Virus record (IMG/VR): IMGVR_UViG_3300043397_000007
Location: 1-23,554 of that record
From: a virus
Direction: 5' to 3' (one strand)
Length of the DNA: 23,554 bases
Shown here: positions 386 through 15,398 of the stretch, piece after piece
How positions within the stretch are numbered: position 1 is the first letter of the stretch
Layout of the letters: the number at the start of each line of letters is the position of its first letter
The notes under the pieces: generated by a model
What the model saw: only the letters and a program-made list of their open reading frames with translations
What the model was told of the DNA's origin: nothing
Database searches by the model: none
Program-made: the position numbers and the translations under genes

Positions 386-414
386 TTGAGTTTTAGCATA
401 CAGAACTATATAAT
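386..414 (+). promoter_or_regulatory. Sigma70-type promoter for primase/helicase
   Basis: TTGAGT at 386-391, a 17-base spacer, and a perfect TATAAT at 409-414. The predicted transcription start (about 7 bases after the -10 box) falls on or next to the primase ATG at 421, so the transcript would be leaderless; there is no Shine-Dalgarno sequence before that ATG. Confidence 0.7.
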
Positions 415-420
415 AGTCGT

Positions 421-1485
421 ATGCTAACAACAATACAAGACGCAGTAAAACAATACCTGCCTTCTAAACGCAAGACCAGTTCTAATGGCTGGACTTCGTT
501 TAATGCTGTGTGTTGCGAGCATAACGGTGAGAGCCGAGACAATCGGGGGCGTGGCGGCGTGATCTCTAATGCCGACGGATCCATATCATACTCTTGTTTC
601 AACTGTAACTTCAAAGCCAACTACACACCGGGACGTCATCTGAACTTTAAGTTTAGAAAGCTACTGAGTTGGTTAGGAGCTGATGAAAACTCCATCAAGC
701 GTTTGGTAATAGATGCGATCCGTGTTAAAGATCTAGTCAGTCCAGAACAAATAAAACAAGCACCTGACGAAGAGGTTACGTTTAAGCCACGCCCATTGCC
801 CGAGGATTCAGTTAGTTTCCAACAATGGAAAACTTTTCTAATGCTACAGGATCAAGACGAGCCTGTGCATCCCCAGTTTGTTAAAGCGTTTAACTATATA
901 CATGAACGCAAGGTCGACTGGGAAAAGTACGAGTTCTACACTACAGAAAACGAAGCATACAACTTATACAAACGTGTAATCATTCCATGCTATTGGAAAG
1001 GCGATTTAATTGGATACACAGCAAGAACTTGGGAAAGCCCAGAGTCAGTCAAACCTAAATATCATAACAGTTACGAGCCTAATTTTGTCTTTAATGTGGA
1101 TATGCAGACTCCTGATAGGAAGTTTGTTCTTGCAGTTGAGGGTCCGTTTGATGCGATGGCAGTTGACGGCGTTGCTGTGCTGTCTAACGAGGTATCTGAG
1201 GTTCAAGCAGATATTATCGACAGTCTTGGGCGGGAAGTCATTGTAGTCCCGGACTTTGACCTTAAAGAAGTACGCGGACGAATGGTATGGGCAGGAGAGA
1301 AACTAGTTGAACAAGCATTAGAGTTTGGATGGAGTGTTAGCTTTCCTGTATGGAGAGATGAGTGTAAGGATGTATCCGCAGCGGTACAAAAATACGGCAA
1401 ATTATTTACGATGAAGGCCATTTTAGAAGGCAAAGAATCGAGCCGCTTAAAAATAGAGTTAATGCGTAAACGCATACATAGTTAA
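421..1485 (+). CDS. DNA primase, T4 gp61-like
   Basis: A 354-residue primase that makes short RNA primers for lagging-strand synthesis, working with the helicase encoded immediately downstream. An N-terminal zinc-binding site is visible as C31-x2-H34 (C32 is also present) and C59-x2-C62, the second pair inside SCFNCNF. A C-terminal Toprim catalytic domain is shown by E240 in EGPFDA and by D278/D280 in VVPDFD, the acidic metal-binding residues of primases and topoisomerases. The length is close to T4 gp61 (342 residues). The stop codon is 2 bases before the helicase ATG, so the two form an operon, as expected for the T4-type primosome. The ATG at 421 lacks a Shine-Dalgarno sequence and lies 6 bases after a TATAAT box. 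Function is well supported by the motif set; the exact start is a little less certain. Confidence 0.9.
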   Translation: MLTTIQDAVKQYLPSKRKTSSNGWTSFNAVCCEHNGESRDNRGRGGVISNADGSISYSCFNCNFKANYTPGRHLNFKFRKLLSWLGADENSIKRLVIDAIRVKDLVSPEQIKQAPDEEVTFKPRPLPEDSVSFQQWKTFLMLQDQDEPVHPQFVKAFNYIHERKVDWEKYEFYTTENEAYNLYKRVIIPCYWKGDLIGYTARTWESPESVKPKYHNSYEPNFVFNVDMQTPDRKFVLAVEGPFDAMAVDGVAVLSNEVSEVQADIIDSLGREVIVVPDFDLKEVRGRMVWAGEKLVEQALEFGWSVSFPVWRDECKDVSAAVQKYGKLFTMKAILEGKESSRLKIELMRKRIHS

Positions 1486-2961: not shown

Positions 2962-2977
2962 TAGCAAGATATTGCTA
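2962..2977 (+). other. Small hairpin upstream of late-type promoter
   Basis: TAGCAA and TTGCTA form a perfect 6-pair stem around GATA, 12 bases downstream of the helicase-end hairpin and 3 bases before the CATAAATA box. It could be an RNA structure or a small palindromic protein site. The role is unknown. Confidence 0.4.
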
Positions 2978-2980
2978 AAC

Positions 2981-2988
2981 CATAAATA
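2981..2988 (+). promoter_or_regulatory. T4-late-type promoter box CATAAATA
   Basis: CATAAATA matches 7 of 8 bases of the T4 late consensus TATAAATA (-13 to -6 in T4). It would start RNA near 2994 and drive the three-gene set from 3010 to 7554. It lies at the switch between the replication genes and the virion-type genes. Confidence 0.5.
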
Positions 2989-3009
2989 TACTAAATTGGA
3001 GTGAATATC

Positions 3010-3261
3010 TTGCAGAAGCGTACTCGTAGCATTTTAGACGAACTTGCAAGCATGCCTGTTGCCAAAGATCAGGCTAGCTTAGTCGAAAGTCGTGCAACCC
3101 ATGTTATTCAAGGTGCTATCAACTTGATAAATTTTATCAAGGAAAATTACGATGCTGAAACCAGTGCTGAATTAGAGCGCCGCCTCTTAAACAGCATTAG
3201 AGCACAAGATCCTGCTAAATTCACTCGAGGAATCAGGAGACAACGTAGTAATGAAAATTGA
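3010..3261 (+). CDS. Conserved-looking small protein of unknown function
   Basis: An 83-residue, mostly helical, charged protein (RTRSILDELASM ... ERRLLNSIRAQDP ... RGIRRQRSNEN). No enzymatic motif or membrane segment is visible. I place the start at TTG 3010, because TTGGAG at 2996-3001 is then a Shine-Dalgarno sequence at normal spacing; the alternative GTG at 3001 would overlap that ribosome site. The 3' end overlaps the next gene by 11 bases, suggesting coupled translation with the large LysM protein. I do not recognise a function; a small scaffold-like or structural accessory role would fit the neighbours but is only inference. Confidence 0.6.
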   Translation: MQKRTRSILDELASMPVAKDQASLVESRATHVIQGAINLINFIKENYDAETSAELERRLLNSIRAQDPAKFTRGIRRQRSNEN

Positions 3262-9548: not shown

Positions 9549-10050
9549 CGCTCCGCATATTAAAGAAGTTATTGCAGCAACAGAAGCCACTAGTTTATAC
9601 ATTGGCGTATGGGCAAAGCAAGAAGCAGAGCGTTTACTTAAACAAGAGCCTGTTATTATTCCGCTTAAAAACGGATACCATGTAGGCAAGTTTACCGTTA
9701 AGAATGCAAATCACACATGGCATGTGTATAATGTGTGGAATGAATTTGTAAACGCATTTAGCAGCAAGCAATCTGCTGTATCCTGGTGCATTTTAGAGCA
9801 CACTGGTAGGATTATTCAGAGCCGAAAACTCATGGATCAAGATGCGAAGGTAAGTAAGTATACGCAGGATCAAACCAATTATTTTCATTCTAGACAGCAG
9901 GCCATTAAACGTGGTGACTATTTTGCTGTTGATTTAAGCGATGCTAGGATTGCCAAAGTCCAAAGTATGCTAGAAGATGCTAAAAATGATCTTGAAAAAA
10001 CTTTAAATTCGGCTAAATATTTGAAAGGTATTTGGGAAAAACCACTATGA
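9514..10050 (+). CDS. Phage protein of unknown function
   Basis: A 178-residue protein. The first about 110 residues look like a small mixed alpha/beta domain (AKQEAERLLKQEPVIIPLKNGYHVGKFTVKN...WHVYNVW, then SAVSWCILEHTGRI). The C-terminal half is helical (DARIAKVQSMLEDAKNDLEKTLNSAKYL) with likely coiled-coil character. No catalytic motif or signal sequence was found. The gene starts inside the end of the previous gene (35-base overlap, another frame) without a clear ribosome site, implying translational coupling, and its stop overlaps the next ATG (ATGA). Placement directly before two probable virion proteins suggests a structural or assembly role, which is inference. Confidence 0.6.
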   Translation: MAKSFTKRKSVNAPHIKEVIAATEATSLYIGVWAKQEAERLLKQEPVIIPLKNGYHVGKFTVKNANHTWHVYNVWNEFVNAFSSKQSAVSWCILEHTGRIIQSRKLMDQDAKVSKYTQDQTNYFHSRQQAIKRGDYFAVDLSDARIAKVQSMLEDAKNDLEKTLNSAKYLKGIWEKPL

Positions 10051-10754
10051 AATTAAACGATATGGCACAAAAGCCTACCACAAAACAAATGAAACGAGTG
10101 ATGGAAAGCCGCTTTGGCTTCTCTGTAGATTACGAAAATCTAACACTCAAGAAGGCTTATAGTATGGCTACGTCTATTACAGAAGCCCTAAACAAAATTA
10201 AGAAAACACACGGCGCCCACGTTGCAGAACGTAACGCAAAGTACATGGAAATGTACATGGTGCGTGAAAGCATTCATAGCTGGATGCGTGAAAACCAAAA
10301 GAGCTTTATCGCTGAAAGCGAAATGGCTAAGAGTGAAGCTATCCTAGCTGCAAAAGACATGGTTGACAGCATTCAAGACATGCTTGAAAAGATTGGTAAA
10401 ATGCAGAACGAGCAATTGCCTGCATTGCTAGATACAATCCGTGACCAATTGGGCATTGAGCAAGCTGACAGCTTTAAGAACGCAGTGGCTCCGCTATTGC
10501 AAGACTTAGCTGGTACACTACAACAAGGTCGCGAAACAGCAGACAATGCTGCACGTGGCTTGGCAGGTGAACAAGTTGAGCAGCCAATGGGCATGGGCGG
10601 TGGCGCACCAGGAATGGGCGGCATGGGCGACTTAGGTGGCGACATGGGCGGTCCAGCTGATCTAGGTGAGCCAAGCGACCTAGATATGGGCGACTTTGCT
10701 GCTACTGATGCTGCTGCTGGCGGTTCTGCTGAACTAGGTAGAGAGCGTAGATAA
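10047..10754 (+). CDS. Probable virion or assembly protein with Gly/Met-rich tail
   Basis: A 235-residue protein. Residues 1-150 are strongly helical and well ordered in appearance (KQMKRVMESRFGFSVDYENL ... MVDSIQDMLEKIGKMQNEQLPALLDTIRD). The last about 55 residues are a low-complexity Gly/Met/Asp tail (MGMGGGAPGMGGMGDLGG...). I start at ATG 10047, which overlaps the preceding stop as ATGA; an in-frame TTG lies 15 bases upstream but has no advantage. The next gene overlaps by TAATG. As I recall, proteins with this helical body occur in marine T4-like phage structural lists; I treat the virion assignment as inferred. Alternative: a scaffold-type protein given the helical body and flexible acidic tail. 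Confidence 0.62.
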   Translation: MKLNDMAQKPTTKQMKRVMESRFGFSVDYENLTLKKAYSMATSITEALNKIKKTHGAHVAERNAKYMEMYMVRESIHSWMRENQKSFIAESEMAKSEAILAAKDMVDSIQDMLEKIGKMQNEQLPALLDTIRDQLGIEQADSFKNAVAPLLQDLAGTLQQGRETADNAARGLAGEQVEQPMGMGGGAPGMGGMGDLGGDMGGPADLGEPSDLDMGDFAATDAAAGGSAELGRERR

Positions 10755-11197
10755 TGCGTTTTAGCGAATTTGTCACAGAAAGCAGTGGCCTCGGGGAAAT
10801 GATTGAGGACGAAGCCGAATCACGCGGCGACAGCGTCCTCTTAACTGCCCTCGAAGAACTACGCAATAGAGCTCACGGACACTCAGTTCCGCGAGTTCGT
10901 GTTGACGCTTTAGTGAACTTAATCAAGCGTTTGCCAGGTGGCGAAATGTTTAACGCAGAAGCATTGGAAAACGCTCGCAAGAGTAACGAAGCTGTTAAGA
11001 ATTTAATTGCAGACATTAAAGACGACGAAGTACACGACCCAAGCGTTGGCGGCACTTCAATTGTTAAGTACGTTTACCTAACTCCATTTGATGATGATCC
11101 ATTCTCAAGTGAAGGCGACGGTGGTACTAAAGCTGGTCAAACTGCACCGGAAAAAACTGTTTCTGGTATGGCTAGCAGAGCACTCGGCAAACGATAA
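10754..11197 (+). CDS. Probable virion-associated small protein
   Basis: A 147-residue acidic protein beginning MRFSEFVTES, a start very like MKIDSILTES of the large LysM protein at 3251. The middle is helical (VLLTALEELRNRAHG, RVDALVNLIKRLPGGEMFNAE), followed by a predicted beta stretch (GGTSIVKYVYLTPFDDDPF) and a disordered tail. No enzymatic motif is visible. It starts on the last base of the upstream stop (TAATG), so the pair is coupled. It ends 3 bases before a long inverted repeat. The role is not recognised; gene context and the shared N-terminal start suggest it is a virion or assembly partner. Confidence 0.6.
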   Translation: MRFSEFVTESSGLGEMIEDEAESRGDSVLLTALEELRNRAHGHSVPRVRVDALVNLIKRLPGGEMFNAEALENARKSNEAVKNLIADIKDDEVHDPSVGGTSIVKYVYLTPFDDDPFSSEGDGGTKAGQTAPEKTVSGMASRALGKR

Positions 11198-11200
11198 ATT

Positions 11201-11239
11201 ATATCATACTTGTAGTTTTGATAATTACAAGTATGATAT
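11201..11239 (+). repeat. Perfect 14-bp inverted repeat covering the next gene's start codon
   Basis: ATATCATACTTGTA (11201-11214) and TACAAGTATGATAT (11226-11239) are exact reverse complements separated by 11 bases. The ATG at 11233 lies inside the right arm. As RNA this hairpin would hide the start codon; as DNA it could be an operator. No T tract follows, so it is not a standard terminator. Confidence 0.75.
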
Positions 11240-12315
11240 TAGTTTACAGCGACAGCCAAATCATTGATAATGAGTGGCTACCCCACATAAGTTTTAAAAC
11301 CCCCTACACACTTTCTCACAGCATTGATGAGTTTGAAGCAGCAGAAGCCACGCTAAAGGTTGCATTCACTACACATCGACTGCACTGTGATTTTGACACT
11401 GCGTACATTGGGTTTGAAGATAAAATCAACCGTTTAAGTTATATAAGTGACTTGGTGTTTACTTTTGAAAGTGAACTCCATAACTTCCATTGGCAAATTT
11501 GGGAAAAGTGTCACCACGATAATGTGTACTGGTTATTACCCGGTGCAGTAAATGATCGTGATGATATTAACAGTCACATTATTTGCTGGGGCGATTGGTT
11601 TAAGACTACAGCCAACATTTACAAAGCCTTGCCGGATAAGGTACTACACATTAACCCATATGCAACCAAGCCCAAGTACTTTGATGCCTTACTAGGCAGT
11701 CCAAAGCCGCATAGAGACTTTGTGTTCAATGCAGTTAACGCAAACGATCTTAACCATAAGTTTATTATGACCTACGGCGGAGATTGGAAAGAAGGCGAAT
11801 TCTATGCCAAGGATTACTTTATTTGGGAAGAAGGCACTACGCCAATTGGGCAGACAATTGGCACAGCAGACTGGGCCGACTACTGTGGGCAACGTGTGCA
11901 TCTAAGTCAAATCATTCCAATTAAGGTAATGAATGATAGTGCTTACACTATTATTGCTGAAACAGACTTTGATAATACCCTAAGTTGCTTTACAGAAAAA
12001 ACAGCCAAGCCAATGATTGCACGTCGACTGTTTATTGCGTTTACTGGATACAAGTTTTTGCACAATTTACGTGCATTGGGATTCCAGACATTTGATGGAA
12101 TCATTGATGAAAGCTATGACTTAGAAATTGATGATAACAAACGATATGCAATGGCGTTTGAACAAGTCAAATATTTGTGTGAACAAGAACAAGATGTGAT
12201 CTACCGCAAGATTAAACCTATTGTAGACCACAACTATAATTTACTAATGACTCGAGACTGGACGCAATGGCCAGCAAAGCAAATCGAGCAAGTTATTAAC
12301 TCTTTATCTGTTTAG
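11233..12315 (+). CDS. Glycosyltransferase-like protein
   Basis: A 360-residue protein. The C-terminal half carries the pattern seen in nucleotide-sugar-using transferases of the GT10/fucosyltransferase-like sort: an 'E' element, then FTEK at 253-256 (typical 'sEK' loop), a hydrophobic RRLFIAFTGYKFL segment, and LRALGFQTFDGIIDESYD at about 279-296 followed by a charged helix. Similar 'EK...lGF.tF...iDEsYD' proteins occur in aquatic T4-like phages. The expected action is transfer of a sugar onto a phage or host glycan. I choose ATG 11233 over an in-frame TTG at 11218. The start codon sits in a hairpin arm and lacks a Shine-Dalgarno sequence. Its 3' end overlaps the convergent SGNH-hydrolase gene by 20 bases. 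The family call is moderate; donor and acceptor are unknown. Confidence 0.55.
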   Translation: MILVYSDSQIIDNEWLPHISFKTPYTLSHSIDEFEAAEATLKVAFTTHRLHCDFDTAYIGFEDKINRLSYISDLVFTFESELHNFHWQIWEKCHHDNVYWLLPGAVNDRDDINSHIICWGDWFKTTANIYKALPDKVLHINPYATKPKYFDALLGSPKPHRDFVFNAVNANDLNHKFIMTYGGDWKEGEFYAKDYFIWEEGTTPIGQTIGTADWADYCGQRVHLSQIIPIKVMNDSAYTIIAETDFDNTLSCFTEKTAKPMIARRLFIAFTGYKFLHNLRALGFQTFDGIIDESYDLEIDDNKRYAMAFEQVKYLCEQEQDVIYRKIKPIVDHNYNLLMTRDWTQWPAKQIEQVINSLSV

Positions 12316-13045
12316 TAACATATTCTGCCCAGGCTTTGTGTGCATTATGTCCTGGGTGGAATCCATCTTCCATAAAATCATTCATGCTCTTGGCCATTTC
12401 ATAAAGGCCATTACGTTCAGCATCAGTGAATATCCACGTGTCTAGTTCTAACTCTCTGATTAATGAGTGCAGTCCGGACATGGCTGTTACACCAAAGTCA
12501 CCGTTGGGGCTAACATTCTTTTTATCATTCCAGTAGTTAACATAACTCATAAACTTGTACTTGATGCCTTTGGCTTCTAAGAAGTTTTTGAGCTTGACCA
12601 TTTCGGTGATGTTAATGGTTGCTAGGCTGTACTCGCTAGACACTTTGTACATCTCGTAGAACATCTTGTGTGCAACAGGGTTCTTAAACCACGTGCCCAT
12701 TTGCCCGCCACTAAAAATGTAACCTAACTTGTTGTCTGGTAATCTACGATAGAATCCGTAGCTGTCAAATAGTTCATTCCATGCTGGATCGGTGATATCT
12801 GTTAGGTAATCTAGTCGGCTTACTCCACTCCACATTACTAGAACTTGATCGTACTTGCCAGGATTATCAAGTACTTCTCGAATAATACTATCTGCAATGT
12901 ATTGGTTACCAGCTGCTGCTTCTGCTAGGTTGGTAATCTCATCGTTGGGGTTCATCTCACTAAAGTATCTTGGCCAACATACATTGGGACCGCCGGGGAA
13001 ATCGGGCCATTGACTAAAACTACATCCGGATATTAGAATTTTCAT
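12296..13045 (-). CDS. SGNH/GDSL-type hydrolase-like protein
   Basis: A 249-residue protein and the only minus-strand gene here. The SGNH family blocks can be followed: GCSFS at 7-11 (block I, likely nucleophile S9), NLAEAAAGN at 39-47 (block II Gly-Asn), VLVMWSGVSR at 68-77 (block III position, GxxR rather than GxND), and D227-GFH230-PG (block V Asp-His). Such enzymes hydrolyse or transfer acyl/acetyl esters, often on polysaccharides. No signal peptide is seen, so it acts in the cytoplasm or on virion parts. I start at ATG 13045; the TTG just before it is less likely. A late-type box on the minus strand ends 5 bases before the ATG. Lying convergent to a glycosyltransferase-like gene, it may modify the same glycan; that link is inference. 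Confidence 0.7.
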   Translation of the reverse strand: MKILISGCSFSQWPDFPGGPNVCWPRYFSEMNPNDEITNLAEAAAGNQYIADSIIREVLDNPGKYDQVLVMWSGVSRLDYLTDITDPAWNELFDSYGFYRRLPDNKLGYIFSGGQMGTWFKNPVAHKMFYEMYKVSSEYSLATINITEMVKLKNFLEAKGIKYKFMSYVNYWNDKKNVSPNGDFGVTAMSGLHSLIRELELDTWIFTDAERNGLYEMAKSMNDFMEDGFHPGHNAHKAWAEYVTKQIKS

Positions 13046-13050
13046 CAAAA

Positions 13051-13058
13051 TATTTATT
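13051..13058 (-). promoter_or_regulatory. T4-late-type promoter box AATAAATA (minus strand)
   Basis: Read on the minus strand, AATAAATA is followed by TTTTG and then ATG (13045), the same 5-base gap as at 8576. It predicts a leaderless late transcript for the SGNH-hydrolase gene. It overlaps by 2 bases the -35 box of the plus-strand promoter. Confidence 0.58.
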
Positions 13059-13085
13059 GACTAATCTGTTTGTAACATTTATAAT
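13057..13085 (+). promoter_or_regulatory. Sigma70-type promoter for the PD-(D/E)XK nuclease
   Basis: TTGACT (13057-13062), a 17-base spacer and a perfect TATAAT (13080-13085). The predicted RNA start is next to ATG 13093, which has no Shine-Dalgarno sequence, so a leaderless message is expected. Confidence 0.75.
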
Positions 13086-13092
13086 TACATAT

Positions 13093-13803
13093 ATGATCAT
13101 TCCCCGTTACAATTACTCACCACTTAGCAGAACCACATTAGAAGGCAAAAGACATTATTGTTTGCCAGATGGTAGCAAAGTTCCTAGCGTTACAACTATT
13201 CTCGATAAAACAAAGCCACAAGAAACCCGCGAAGCTCTCAACAACTGGAAGAAGCGTGTAGGCGAACAACGAGCACAGCAAATTACCACTGAAGCTGCAA
13301 ATCGTGGCACTAGGATGCATGCATACCTTGAACAGTATATTCTGCAAGATGACATGAAGCCATTGCCCGAGAACCCATTTGCACATCCAAGTTGGTTTAT
13401 GGCAGCAGAAGTTATTCTTAAAGGACTTTGCCATGTAGACGAATTCTGGGGCACAGAAGTTCCTGTGTATTATAGTGGGTTATATGCTGGCACCACAGAC
13501 TGTTTAGGTGTGTGGAAGGGCCGTCCTGCTATCATGGACTTTAAGCAAAGTAACAAAGTTAAAAAGCGTGAGTGGATTGAAGACTACTTTTTGCAGTTAG
13601 CAGCCTACGCAGCAGCACACAATGAAACGTATGGTACCAATATACGTGATGGTGTAATTTTGATGGCTGTGCAGCCAAAACAGCTAGAAGATGGCACCTT
13701 TTCGACGCCAGAATACCTGGAATTTGAAGTCTCAGGAGACGAGTTTGACCACTGGAGCCAACAGTGGATGAAACGTGTAGAGCTCTATTACCTAACTAAC
13801 TAA
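13093..13803 (+). CDS. PD-(D/E)XK nuclease (RecB/Cas4-like exonuclease)
   Basis: A 236-residue nuclease-fold protein. The catalytic signature is clear: D136 in AGTTDCLGVW, D149-F-K151 in AIMDFKQSNK, and the trailing helix with Q168 and Y172 (QLAAYA), the order found in the RecB/lambda-exonuclease-like branch. An upstream conserved-looking GTRMHAYLEQYI helix with a His fits the same branch. It probably trims or processes DNA ends during phage recombination or host DNA breakdown. I start at ATG 13093 rather than the in-frame TTG at 13057, because that TTG is the -35 box of a good promoter. It is transcribed away from the SGNH gene and followed 26 bases later by the tail spike gene with its own late-type promoter. 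Confidence 0.85.
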   Translation: MIIPRYNYSPLSRTTLEGKRHYCLPDGSKVPSVTTILDKTKPQETREALNNWKKRVGEQRAQQITTEAANRGTRMHAYLEQYILQDDMKPLPENPFAHPSWFMAAEVILKGLCHVDEFWGTEVPVYYSGLYAGTTDCLGVWKGRPAIMDFKQSNKVKKREWIEDYFLQLAAYAAAHNETYGTNIRDGVILMAVQPKQLEDGTFSTPEYLEFEVSGDEFDHWSQQWMKRVELYYLTN

Positions 13804-13829: not shown

Positions 13830-15398
13830 ATGGCTGTCGTACAGATTAGTAGAATTCAAGCCCGTAGAGGTTTACAACAAGATTTACCAACCTTAGCAAG
13901 TGCAGAGTTTGGGTGGAGCGTTGACCAACGTAGATTGTTTATTGGTAACGGCACCCTAACAGAAGGTGCTCCTACCGAAGGCGTTACTGAGGTTTTAACA
14001 CAGTATACTGACTTAACCACAGTATTAAGAAATTACACATTCCGCGGTAATGCAGGCGGATACACAGCACAAACTGGCCCATCTATGTTGAGCCCAACTG
14101 TGCGTAGTTTCCAAGACAAGCTAGATGACTTTGTTAACGTTAAAGACTTTGGTGCAACAGGCAACGGTGTAACAGACGACACCGCAGCCATTAACAGAGC
14201 AATTACACAGATTTACTATGCACCACACTTAAGCGATACACGAGTTCGCAGAACCTTGTATTTCCCTGCAGGCACTTATGTAGTTTCGGGTGCAGTATTG
14301 TTGATTCCACCATATGCCCGTTTAGTTGGCGACGGTATTGAAAGTACAGTTATCCAACAAACAGACAGCTCGCAAACTTGCTTGATGCAAGTAACTGACA
14401 GCTTATACCAAACTGGTGCTAGCATGGGCCAAAACAGTGCAACACTTCCTGGTTATGTAACCATTGAAGAAATGACATTGGCCAACACCAGCGACAAAGA
14501 CGTTATTATCCTTGACAGCGTATTGAACTTTACGTTCTTTGCAGTTGAGTTCTTGGGCGGGTTATCTAACCCAACTACTGCTGGTAGCCAAGCGTATGCT
14601 GGTGTAAAGGTTAAGTCATTTGCACGTACCAGTGAAAACGTTAACTTTTGGTCATGCACCTTTAAGAATACACGCTATGCAGTGTTAAGCGACGATGCAG
14701 GCTCTGACGTTAAGCTAAACGGCTGCTCATTTATTGGTTTGTACAAAGGTATCAAACTAGGACAAAACAGCACACCTACAACAATGCCTTCAAACTACAA
14801 GGTCATTAACTGTGTGTTCTACAGCGTTGCAAACAATGCAATTGACTGCTATGCAGGCGTAAGCGGCGTTTTAAGCAGCGGTAACAACTACGTAGACGTT
14901 GGCAATAACTTTGCCGGTGTTGGTAGCCCAGTTGCTCCTGTATTATCCTTTGTGTCGGATGGTAACTATAGCCTATGCGATACATTTACTCGCACAGATG
15001 CAGATGATGTTGTACAAAAACGTATCAGCTACAACAACAGCAAATTTGTAAGCATTCAATCCAACGTTGGATTGGTATCTGGTAATTTTGTTACCGGTAT
15101 CGGTGGCATAGTTACATTAGCAGATAACACATCGGCTTACGCATCTACTGGTATCGTCTTGCAATCTACCTGTCAAGTTAACTATACTATCACACGTGGT
15201 ACTACTGTAAGACACGGGACGTTTACATTTACATATGACGGAACAACTCCGAACTATTCTGACAACTACATGACCTCTGGTGCAAACAGTATCACATTGG
15301 CTACTGGAACTAACTTAGGCCGAAACGTTATCACATACATTTCATCAAACACTGGCGTTGACGCCACAATGAAATACAACATCAACTACTTTAATTAA
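13830..15398 (+). CDS. Tail spike / tail fibre with pectate-lyase-like beta-helix
   Basis: A 522-residue adsorption protein. Residues about 1-40 (VQISRIQARRGLQQDLP...AEFGWSVD..RLFIGNG) match the short N-terminal module often found at the base of phage fibres, 'iq.RrG....lp.l..aE.gw..d..rlfiGnG'. Residues about 101-120 (FVNVKDFGATGNGVTDDTAA) are the hallmark start of a pectate-lyase-type right-handed beta-helix; the rest is a Ser/Thr/Asn/Val-rich repeat region typical of such helices. It probably binds, and may cleave, host surface polysaccharide. No obvious catalytic residues can be assigned by eye. AGAGGA precedes the ATG, and a late-type promoter lies just upstream. A C-terminal trimer-forming segment is likely but not identified. 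Confidence 0.82.
   Translation: MAVVQISRIQARRGLQQDLPTLASAEFGWSVDQRRLFIGNGTLTEGAPTEGVTEVLTQYTDLTTVLRNYTFRGNAGGYTAQTGPSMLSPTVRSFQDKLDDFVNVKDFGATGNGVTDDTAAINRAITQIYYAPHLSDTRVRRTLYFPAGTYVVSGAVLLIPPYARLVGDGIESTVIQQTDSSQTCLMQVTDSLYQTGASMGQNSATLPGYVTIEEMTLANTSDKDVIILDSVLNFTFFAVEFLGGLSNPTTAGSQAYAGVKVKSFARTSENVNFWSCTFKNTRYAVLSDDAGSDVKLNGCSFIGLYKGIKLGQNSTPTTMPSNYKVINCVFYSVANNAIDCYAGVSGVLSSGNNYVDVGNNFAGVGSPVAPVLSFVSDGNYSLCDTFTRTDADDVVQKRISYNNSKFVSIQSNVGLVSGNFVTGIGGIVTLADNTSAYASTGIVLQSTCQVNYTITRGTTVRHGTFTFTYDGTTPNYSDNYMTSGANSITLATGTNLGRNVITYISSNTGVDATMKYNINYFN

Follow-up and report, generated by a model that had tools for sequence, protein, structure and literature searches.

As the start codon of a glycosyltransferase-like gene in this viral DNA lies inside a long perfect inverted repeat, we wondered what the repeat does and how a gene with such a start could be expressed. 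The repeat is exactly as a sequence-only reading had described it: two 14-bp arms, 100% complementary, flank an 11-base spacer. The left arm (11201-11214, ATATCATACTTGTA) lies directly 3' of one gene, just after its TAA stop codon, and the right arm (11226-11239) includes the ATG of the next. No other perfect inverted repeat in the window, by which we mean the whole 23,554-nt stretch of DNA that was analysed, combines arms of >=11 with a loop of 3-30; a loop-less palindrome is also present at 15057-15074. The suspicion that chance would hardly produce such a repeat was borne out in 60 dinucleotide shuffles of the window, where the longest arm was 12 (four cases) and 13 was never reached. The locus comprises:

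10032-10754, plus strand: gene before the upstream gene, matching PHROG 14154 (virion structural protein)
10754-11197, plus strand: upstream gene, probably a virion gene, itself with no Pfam or PHROG match, for which we infer the late class
11195-11217, plus strand: 5' strand of the hairpin, opening with the upstream stop codon TAA (11195-11197), holding the left arm and identical in 5/5 repeat-bearing relatives
11218-11222, plus strand: apical loop, the sole variable part (one substitution in L006; one substitution and a 3-nt insertion in L007)
11220-11225, plus strand: GATAAT, a possible -10 box 7 nt before the ATG, from which RNA would be leaderless and would lack the left strand
11223-11246, plus strand: 3' strand of the hairpin, holding the right arm and the start codon (11233-11235)
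11233-12315, plus strand: downstream gene with the masked start, encoding 360 aa with a predicted GT-B fold; the start is supported by homologues
12296-13048, minus strand: convergent gene, with a DUF6071 match below the curated cut-off

In the predicted RNA fold, the repeat is larger than first noted. Positions 11195-11217 pair with 11223-11246 in an extended stem of 23 pairs with one bulge, G-U pairs counted, which begins at the upstream stop codon, reaches into the next gene as far as codon 5 and includes the AUG among its paired positions. The 81 nt from 11180 to 11260 fold at -27.5 kcal/mol, where shuffles average -9.65 (z -6.95) and none of 200 reached so low an energy; 11195-11246 fold at -21.4 kcal/mol. 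When 871 start regions from the window and seven related contigs were folded, the lowest three were a terminator-like region and two copies of the repeat locus. No Shine-Dalgarno sequence is visible for the glycosyltransferase-like gene, and no Rfam family matched the window at the gathering score.

The window probably represents part of the genome of a jumbo myovirus-like phage. Its DnaB-like helicase has its closest named-phage matches in PA5oct, Paride and Atu_ph07 (46-50% identity), and primase, helicase, exonuclease and nrdA follow a common order in the window and in Paride, the window primase match lying below the curated cut-off. Neither the DNA of the two genes flanking the junction (distant mode) nor either of their proteins had a match in the named-phage collection at E 1e-5. 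The downstream protein matches no Pfam or PHROG family, and its label as glycosyltransferase-like, first given from the sequence, is supported by the GT-B fold of its predicted model (mean pLDDT 85). The best Foldseek row for this model is TarM (E 2.3e-3, TMq 0.34), and the best VIA-align match is EXT2 (Z 13.0, rmsd 4.6, 265 aligned), followed mostly by glycosyltransferases.

Relatives of the downstream protein were found at 22 viral loci, some of them near-duplicates. Five of these (L003-L007; proteins 93-99% identical) carry the repeat, and the other 17, which are more distant, are without it; the carriers are thus few, all of them uncultured relatives of giant phages. The check for covariation that had been suggested for the arms revealed invariance in place of compensation: the arms are identical in all five carriers. 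As the arms never vary, RNA and DNA readings are inseparable by covariation. Across the five carriers, the two strands of the hairpin show no change in 47 positions and the loop alone varies; the invariant positions include those that are G-U-paired or bulged in the extended stem, which are partly stop codon or coding sequence. When the window is compared with L007, 15% of positions in the upstream gene and 17% of those in the downstream gene differ, values that are also the upper limits among the five carriers, and fourfold sites differ at 19 of 63 (30%) and 47 of 98 (48%), respectively. The 20 non-coding positions of the left strand are unchanged in this pair. Under an expected change of 30-50% this is very unlikely (by a simple estimate, 0.7^20 ~8e-4 and 0.5^20 ~1e-6), which argues for selection on the repeat. 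The downstream gene itself has a dN/dS of 0.009-0.025 within the group; it is under purifying selection and therefore used. We conclude that the hairpin, predicted to mask the start, is real and under selection.

Relatives of the upstream gene, at 17 loci, show that the junction is a slot whose content varies, with virion genes on one side and the exonuclease gene on the other. Iron-sulphur genes fill the slot in several relatives and the exonuclease gene alone does so in others; the former were identified as NifU_N and Fe-S_biosyn by Pfam in L031 and assigned by likeness at the other loci. These phage-borne NifU_N (IscU-like) and Fe-S_biosyn (IscA-like) genes lie at 2959-3652 of L031 and are also found in L034, L039 and L041. 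The repeat therefore sits where the window's group lacks those genes, and the simplest reading of this gene content would be that the group has lost them. The start of the glycosyltransferase gene overlaps the stop before it in L031 and, by eye, in several other relatives, so that the gene was coupled there. Other hairpins occupy the same junction elsewhere: on one contig (L011/L030) a terminator-like hairpin, with a 10-bp stem followed by TTTTATT, replaces the repeat, L040 has a strong terminator-like hairpin and L037 has a hairpin without a T run.

How might a gene whose AUG would be buried in RNA from upstream be read at all? Early genes of these phages offer a possible answer, as the -10-to-ATG distances of strong sigma70-type promoters peak sharply at 5-7 nt (28 of 117, with homologues counted separately). 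This peak, which is absent with two scrambled motif pairs, predicts leaderless early RNAs. Many early genes of the phage group look leaderless, in G006 (L046-L063), in the window at the exonuclease gene and in others, and phage transcripts are described as often leaderless (PMC5312081). Two such starts in the window are:

386-427, plus strand: primase start hairpin (arms 393-401 and 419-427) with TTGAGT at 386-391, TATAAT at 409-414 and ATG at 421
13057-13095, plus strand: start of the exonuclease gene (assigned by PHROG 298) with its predicted leaderless early promoter, TTGACT-17-TATAAT-7-ATG

A late-type TAAATA lies on the minus strand at 13056-13051, directly before the convergent gene, and touches the exonuclease -35 box on the opposite strand.

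The primase is the best case of a predicted leaderless early start. Its layout is TTGA..-17-TATAAT-6-ATG. A hairpin that begins 25 nt after the upstream stop takes up the AUG in its right arm and the -10 box in its loop. The ORF before it has only a sub-threshold Laminin_G_3 match and is a probable virion gene in the window. A primase promoter 5-8 nt from the ATG (-35 at least 4/6, -10 at least 5/6) is present in 32 of 38 distinct segments. Its hairpin has the arm sequences TTAGCATAC/GTATGCTAA (window), TAGCATCACACA/TGTGTGATGCTA (G001 and G004) and TTTGACATTGTG/CACAATGTCAAA (G011); the hairpin keeps its pairing while its letters change, that is, by compensation. Across 26 non-redundant loci, the mean pairing of each start with its own flank was better than in all 20,000 permutations (p 5e-5). 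Stems reach -9 kcal/mol at only 10 of the 26, and at five the start pairs better with its own left flank than with any other; the stem lies in a different place in L073, and the hairpin is absent in G006 and G009.

A similar layout is found at the exonuclease start of Paride, a cultured phage (L160 29494-29532), where TTGACA-17-TATAAT-7-ATG lies in a predicted hairpin; the 150 kb scanned of its 287 kb show no peak at 5-7 nt. At the exonuclease starts of RaK2, 121Q and XbC2, the promoters lie at least 13-17 nt before the start and strong hairpins are absent, and Atu_ph07, an Agrobacterium phage, has a terminator-like hairpin there without a leaderless hairpin promoter. Most of 46 non-redundant exonuclease starts have neither a promoter nor a strong hairpin. 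For leaderless early promoters in general, the enrichment of hairpins was not significant (n=16, p 0.097). Hairpin-masked leaderless early genes were not found among the titles and abstract beginnings of the literature matches listed, which is no proof of absence.

Within the repeat, GATAAT matches the -10 box at 5/6 positions and is accompanied by at most 3/6 of a -35; a sigma70 promoter with a -35 box was not found in the repeat, and the 3-nt insertion in the loop of L007 would alter any -35 spacing. GATAAT-like hexamers lacking a -35 box are not enriched at 5-7 nt from ATG. When 1108 start contexts were compared, own copies set aside, the GATAAT/ATG region best resembled the predicted leaderless promoter of the exonuclease gene (22/28). 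An internal promoter at GATAAT giving a leaderless RNA is, on these motif comparisons, a weakly supported candidate. A late promoter inside the repeat, of the strict T4 gene e type, was rejected: TAAATA(C/T) is absent, its nearest approach, TAAATT at 11195-11200, is not the motif of the group, and RNA starting near 11207 keeps a stem of about -9 to -10 kcal/mol.

The late-type motif itself is evident in G006, a 354-kb related phage contig, whose upstream regions are enriched in the words TAAATAC/ATAAATA, classed as late-type by likeness to T4, and TATAATA/GTTGACC, classed as sigma70-type. Intergenic over coding density in this contig is 5.0-fold for TAAATA and 1.9-fold for TAAATT. We measured how well leaders pair with the DNA that precedes the predicted RNA start, and found this pairing significant (p<=0.01) at 12 of 137 late-type motifs near starts, where ~1.4 were expected, homologues being counted apart. 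For the late promoters of G006 alone (n=54), pairing of the own left flank and leader beats that with swapped leaders (p 1.5e-4), whereas at 150 control starts own pairing was no better than swapped (p 0.84). The window holds one such hairpin:

2964-3013, plus strand: T4 gene e-like hairpin (arms 2964-2973 and 3004-3013) enclosing a late-type TAAATA at 2983, before the gene at 3001

Both this hairpin and those at the G006 late promoters have the layout of T4 gene e (PMC3014915).

That paper describes hairpins at T4 gene e (lysozyme), soc, 49 and I-TevI that mask the start codon and/or the Shine-Dalgarno sequence in read-through RNA; at gene e and I-TevI, the gene is kept off early RNA and a late promoter lies at the 5' strand (PMC3014915). 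The repeat is like these four in that its predicted hairpin pairs the start region in RNA from upstream genes, and like gene e-type locks in that the helix is kept in close relatives (5 of 22 loci, arms identical). It differs from gene e and I-TevI in lacking the late motif TAAATA, with TAAATT only, and from the T4 hairpins in that the AUG itself is masked, no Shine-Dalgarno sequence is visible and the stem begins at the upstream stop codon. As the defining late promoter was sought and not found, we do not count the repeat as a member of the gene e type. In mobE of phage Aeh1, described in the same source, a hairpin reduces translation initiation (PMC3014915); there too an accessory gene has a start-masking hairpin, although mobE, unlike the gene at the repeat, is a homing endonuclease gene. 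With the primase hairpin, the repeat shares the AUG in the right arm, the -10-like hexamer in the loop and, in the window, a position downstream of a probable virion gene; the distance from hexamer to AUG is 7 nt in the repeat and 6-8 nt in four primase hairpin cases. The primase, in contrast, has a -35 of at least 4/6, TATAAT or TATACT as its -10 and arms that change with compensation. The repeat is a variant of known start-masking hairpins and resembles the T4 switch.

From this anatomy, the selection on the repeat and its analogues, we infer a lock on read-through RNA. The repeat would work as RNA: in transcripts reading through from the virion genes, 11195-11217 would pair with 11223-11246 and bury the AUG of the glycosyltransferase-like gene. 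As the AUG would be buried and no Shine-Dalgarno sequence is visible, such RNA would be poorly translated for this gene. Among the functions that had been proposed from the sequence alone, start masking in read-through RNA fits best, in keeping with the paired AUG of the predicted fold, the invariant arms around a variable loop and the hairpins around other promoters and starts in relatives; the operator that had been offered beside it is less likely. We consider it likely that the repeat is an RNA lock in some form. That likelihood is composed of a lock that is not opened by translational coupling, including the version with an internal start, and of one that is. The former is the best explanation, and we give it an even chance. 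Its preferred escape would be an RNA initiated within the hairpin around 11231-11233, with GATAAT as the -10 box, beginning at or just before the AUG and lacking the left strand, as predicted for the primase of the same genome; with this internal start included, the explanation is tentative and falls somewhat short of an even chance. In this way, an accessory enzyme gene located right after late virion genes would stay out of the late programme.

The main rival is translational coupling, in which the hairpin likewise masks the AUG but is opened by a ribosome that finishes the upstream gene at the base of the stem, which would make synthesis of the second protein depend on translation of the first. 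It requires no new promoter, the stem starts at the upstream stop codon itself, and the overlap of start and preceding stop in L031 and other relatives with iron-sulphur genes upstream gives it a precedent. How far it would work depends on the reach of the ribosome: RNA blocked to 11212 leaves no stem and RNA blocked to 11209 leaves -4.9 kcal/mol, but coverage to only 11207 leaves -9.1 kcal/mol. A 35-nt gap without a Shine-Dalgarno sequence, as at the repeat, should moreover make re-initiation inefficient, and the primase hairpin of the same genome, 25 nt past its upstream stop, needs no coupling. We regard coupling as possible but rather unlikely. A DNA operator, that is, a palindromic site for a dimeric regulator over the gene start, would account for a long perfect palindrome with both arms under selection. 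However, among 11 related records, which range up to 354 kb, five have the half-site (<=1 mismatch), only at the repeat locus and with no second copy, and the RNA stem continues past the perfect arms by way of G-U pairs and a bulge, at positions that are invariant too, if partly as stop codon or coding sequence. The operator is therefore improbable.

Three further readings would make the hairpin an RNA-processing site, a 3' end or an accident. T7 uses RNase III processing sites of this kind, and the 23-pair stem has a suitable length to be cut, which would separate the virion mRNA from the downstream mRNA and free the AUG; such a site, however, should not need exact letters over its whole length, and the other junction hairpins in relatives are shorter or terminator-like, which leaves this reading quite improbable. 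The hairpins of L011/L030, L040 and L037 at the same junction, together with the one before the exonuclease gene of Atu_ph07, would fit a role of the repeat in weak termination or in stabilising the 3' end of the virion operon, with a chance overlap of the next start. As an intrinsic terminator, however, the repeat was rejected, as its stem is A+T-rich, no T run follows the stem on either strand and a terminator scan made no call; termination here would also remove the only evident transcription of a gene under selection, and we find this reading very improbable. Finally, the repeat could be a mutational relic, a functionless inverted duplication left by the loss of the iron-sulphur genes: it sits where relatives have NifU_N and Fe-S_biosyn genes, and its right arm carries a start region common to homologues. 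The absence of change in the 20 non-coding left-strand positions, against the fourfold divergence of both flanking genes between the window and L007, makes a relic extremely improbable.

The lock on read-through RNA may be one side of a two-way timing scheme in which promoters of these giant-phage relatives, late and early alike, are wrapped in hairpins, a scheme that we put forward as speculative and rather unlikely. On the late side, hairpins around late promoters would silence late genes on read-through RNA, as in T4. On the early side, hairpins around promoters for leaderless RNAs would silence the primase and glycosyltransferase genes on late read-through RNA; what they hide would be the start codon itself, and the key would be an RNA that starts at the AUG. 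The locus also carries a caution, as a gene sited after virion genes need not be expressed late. As the exonuclease start of Paride has a similar layout, the idea is open to direct test in a cultured phage. If it is true, leaderless early mRNAs would become a predictable and testable feature of this phage group, and hairpins that hide start codons would be a general timing device of the group, beyond a few genes of T4.
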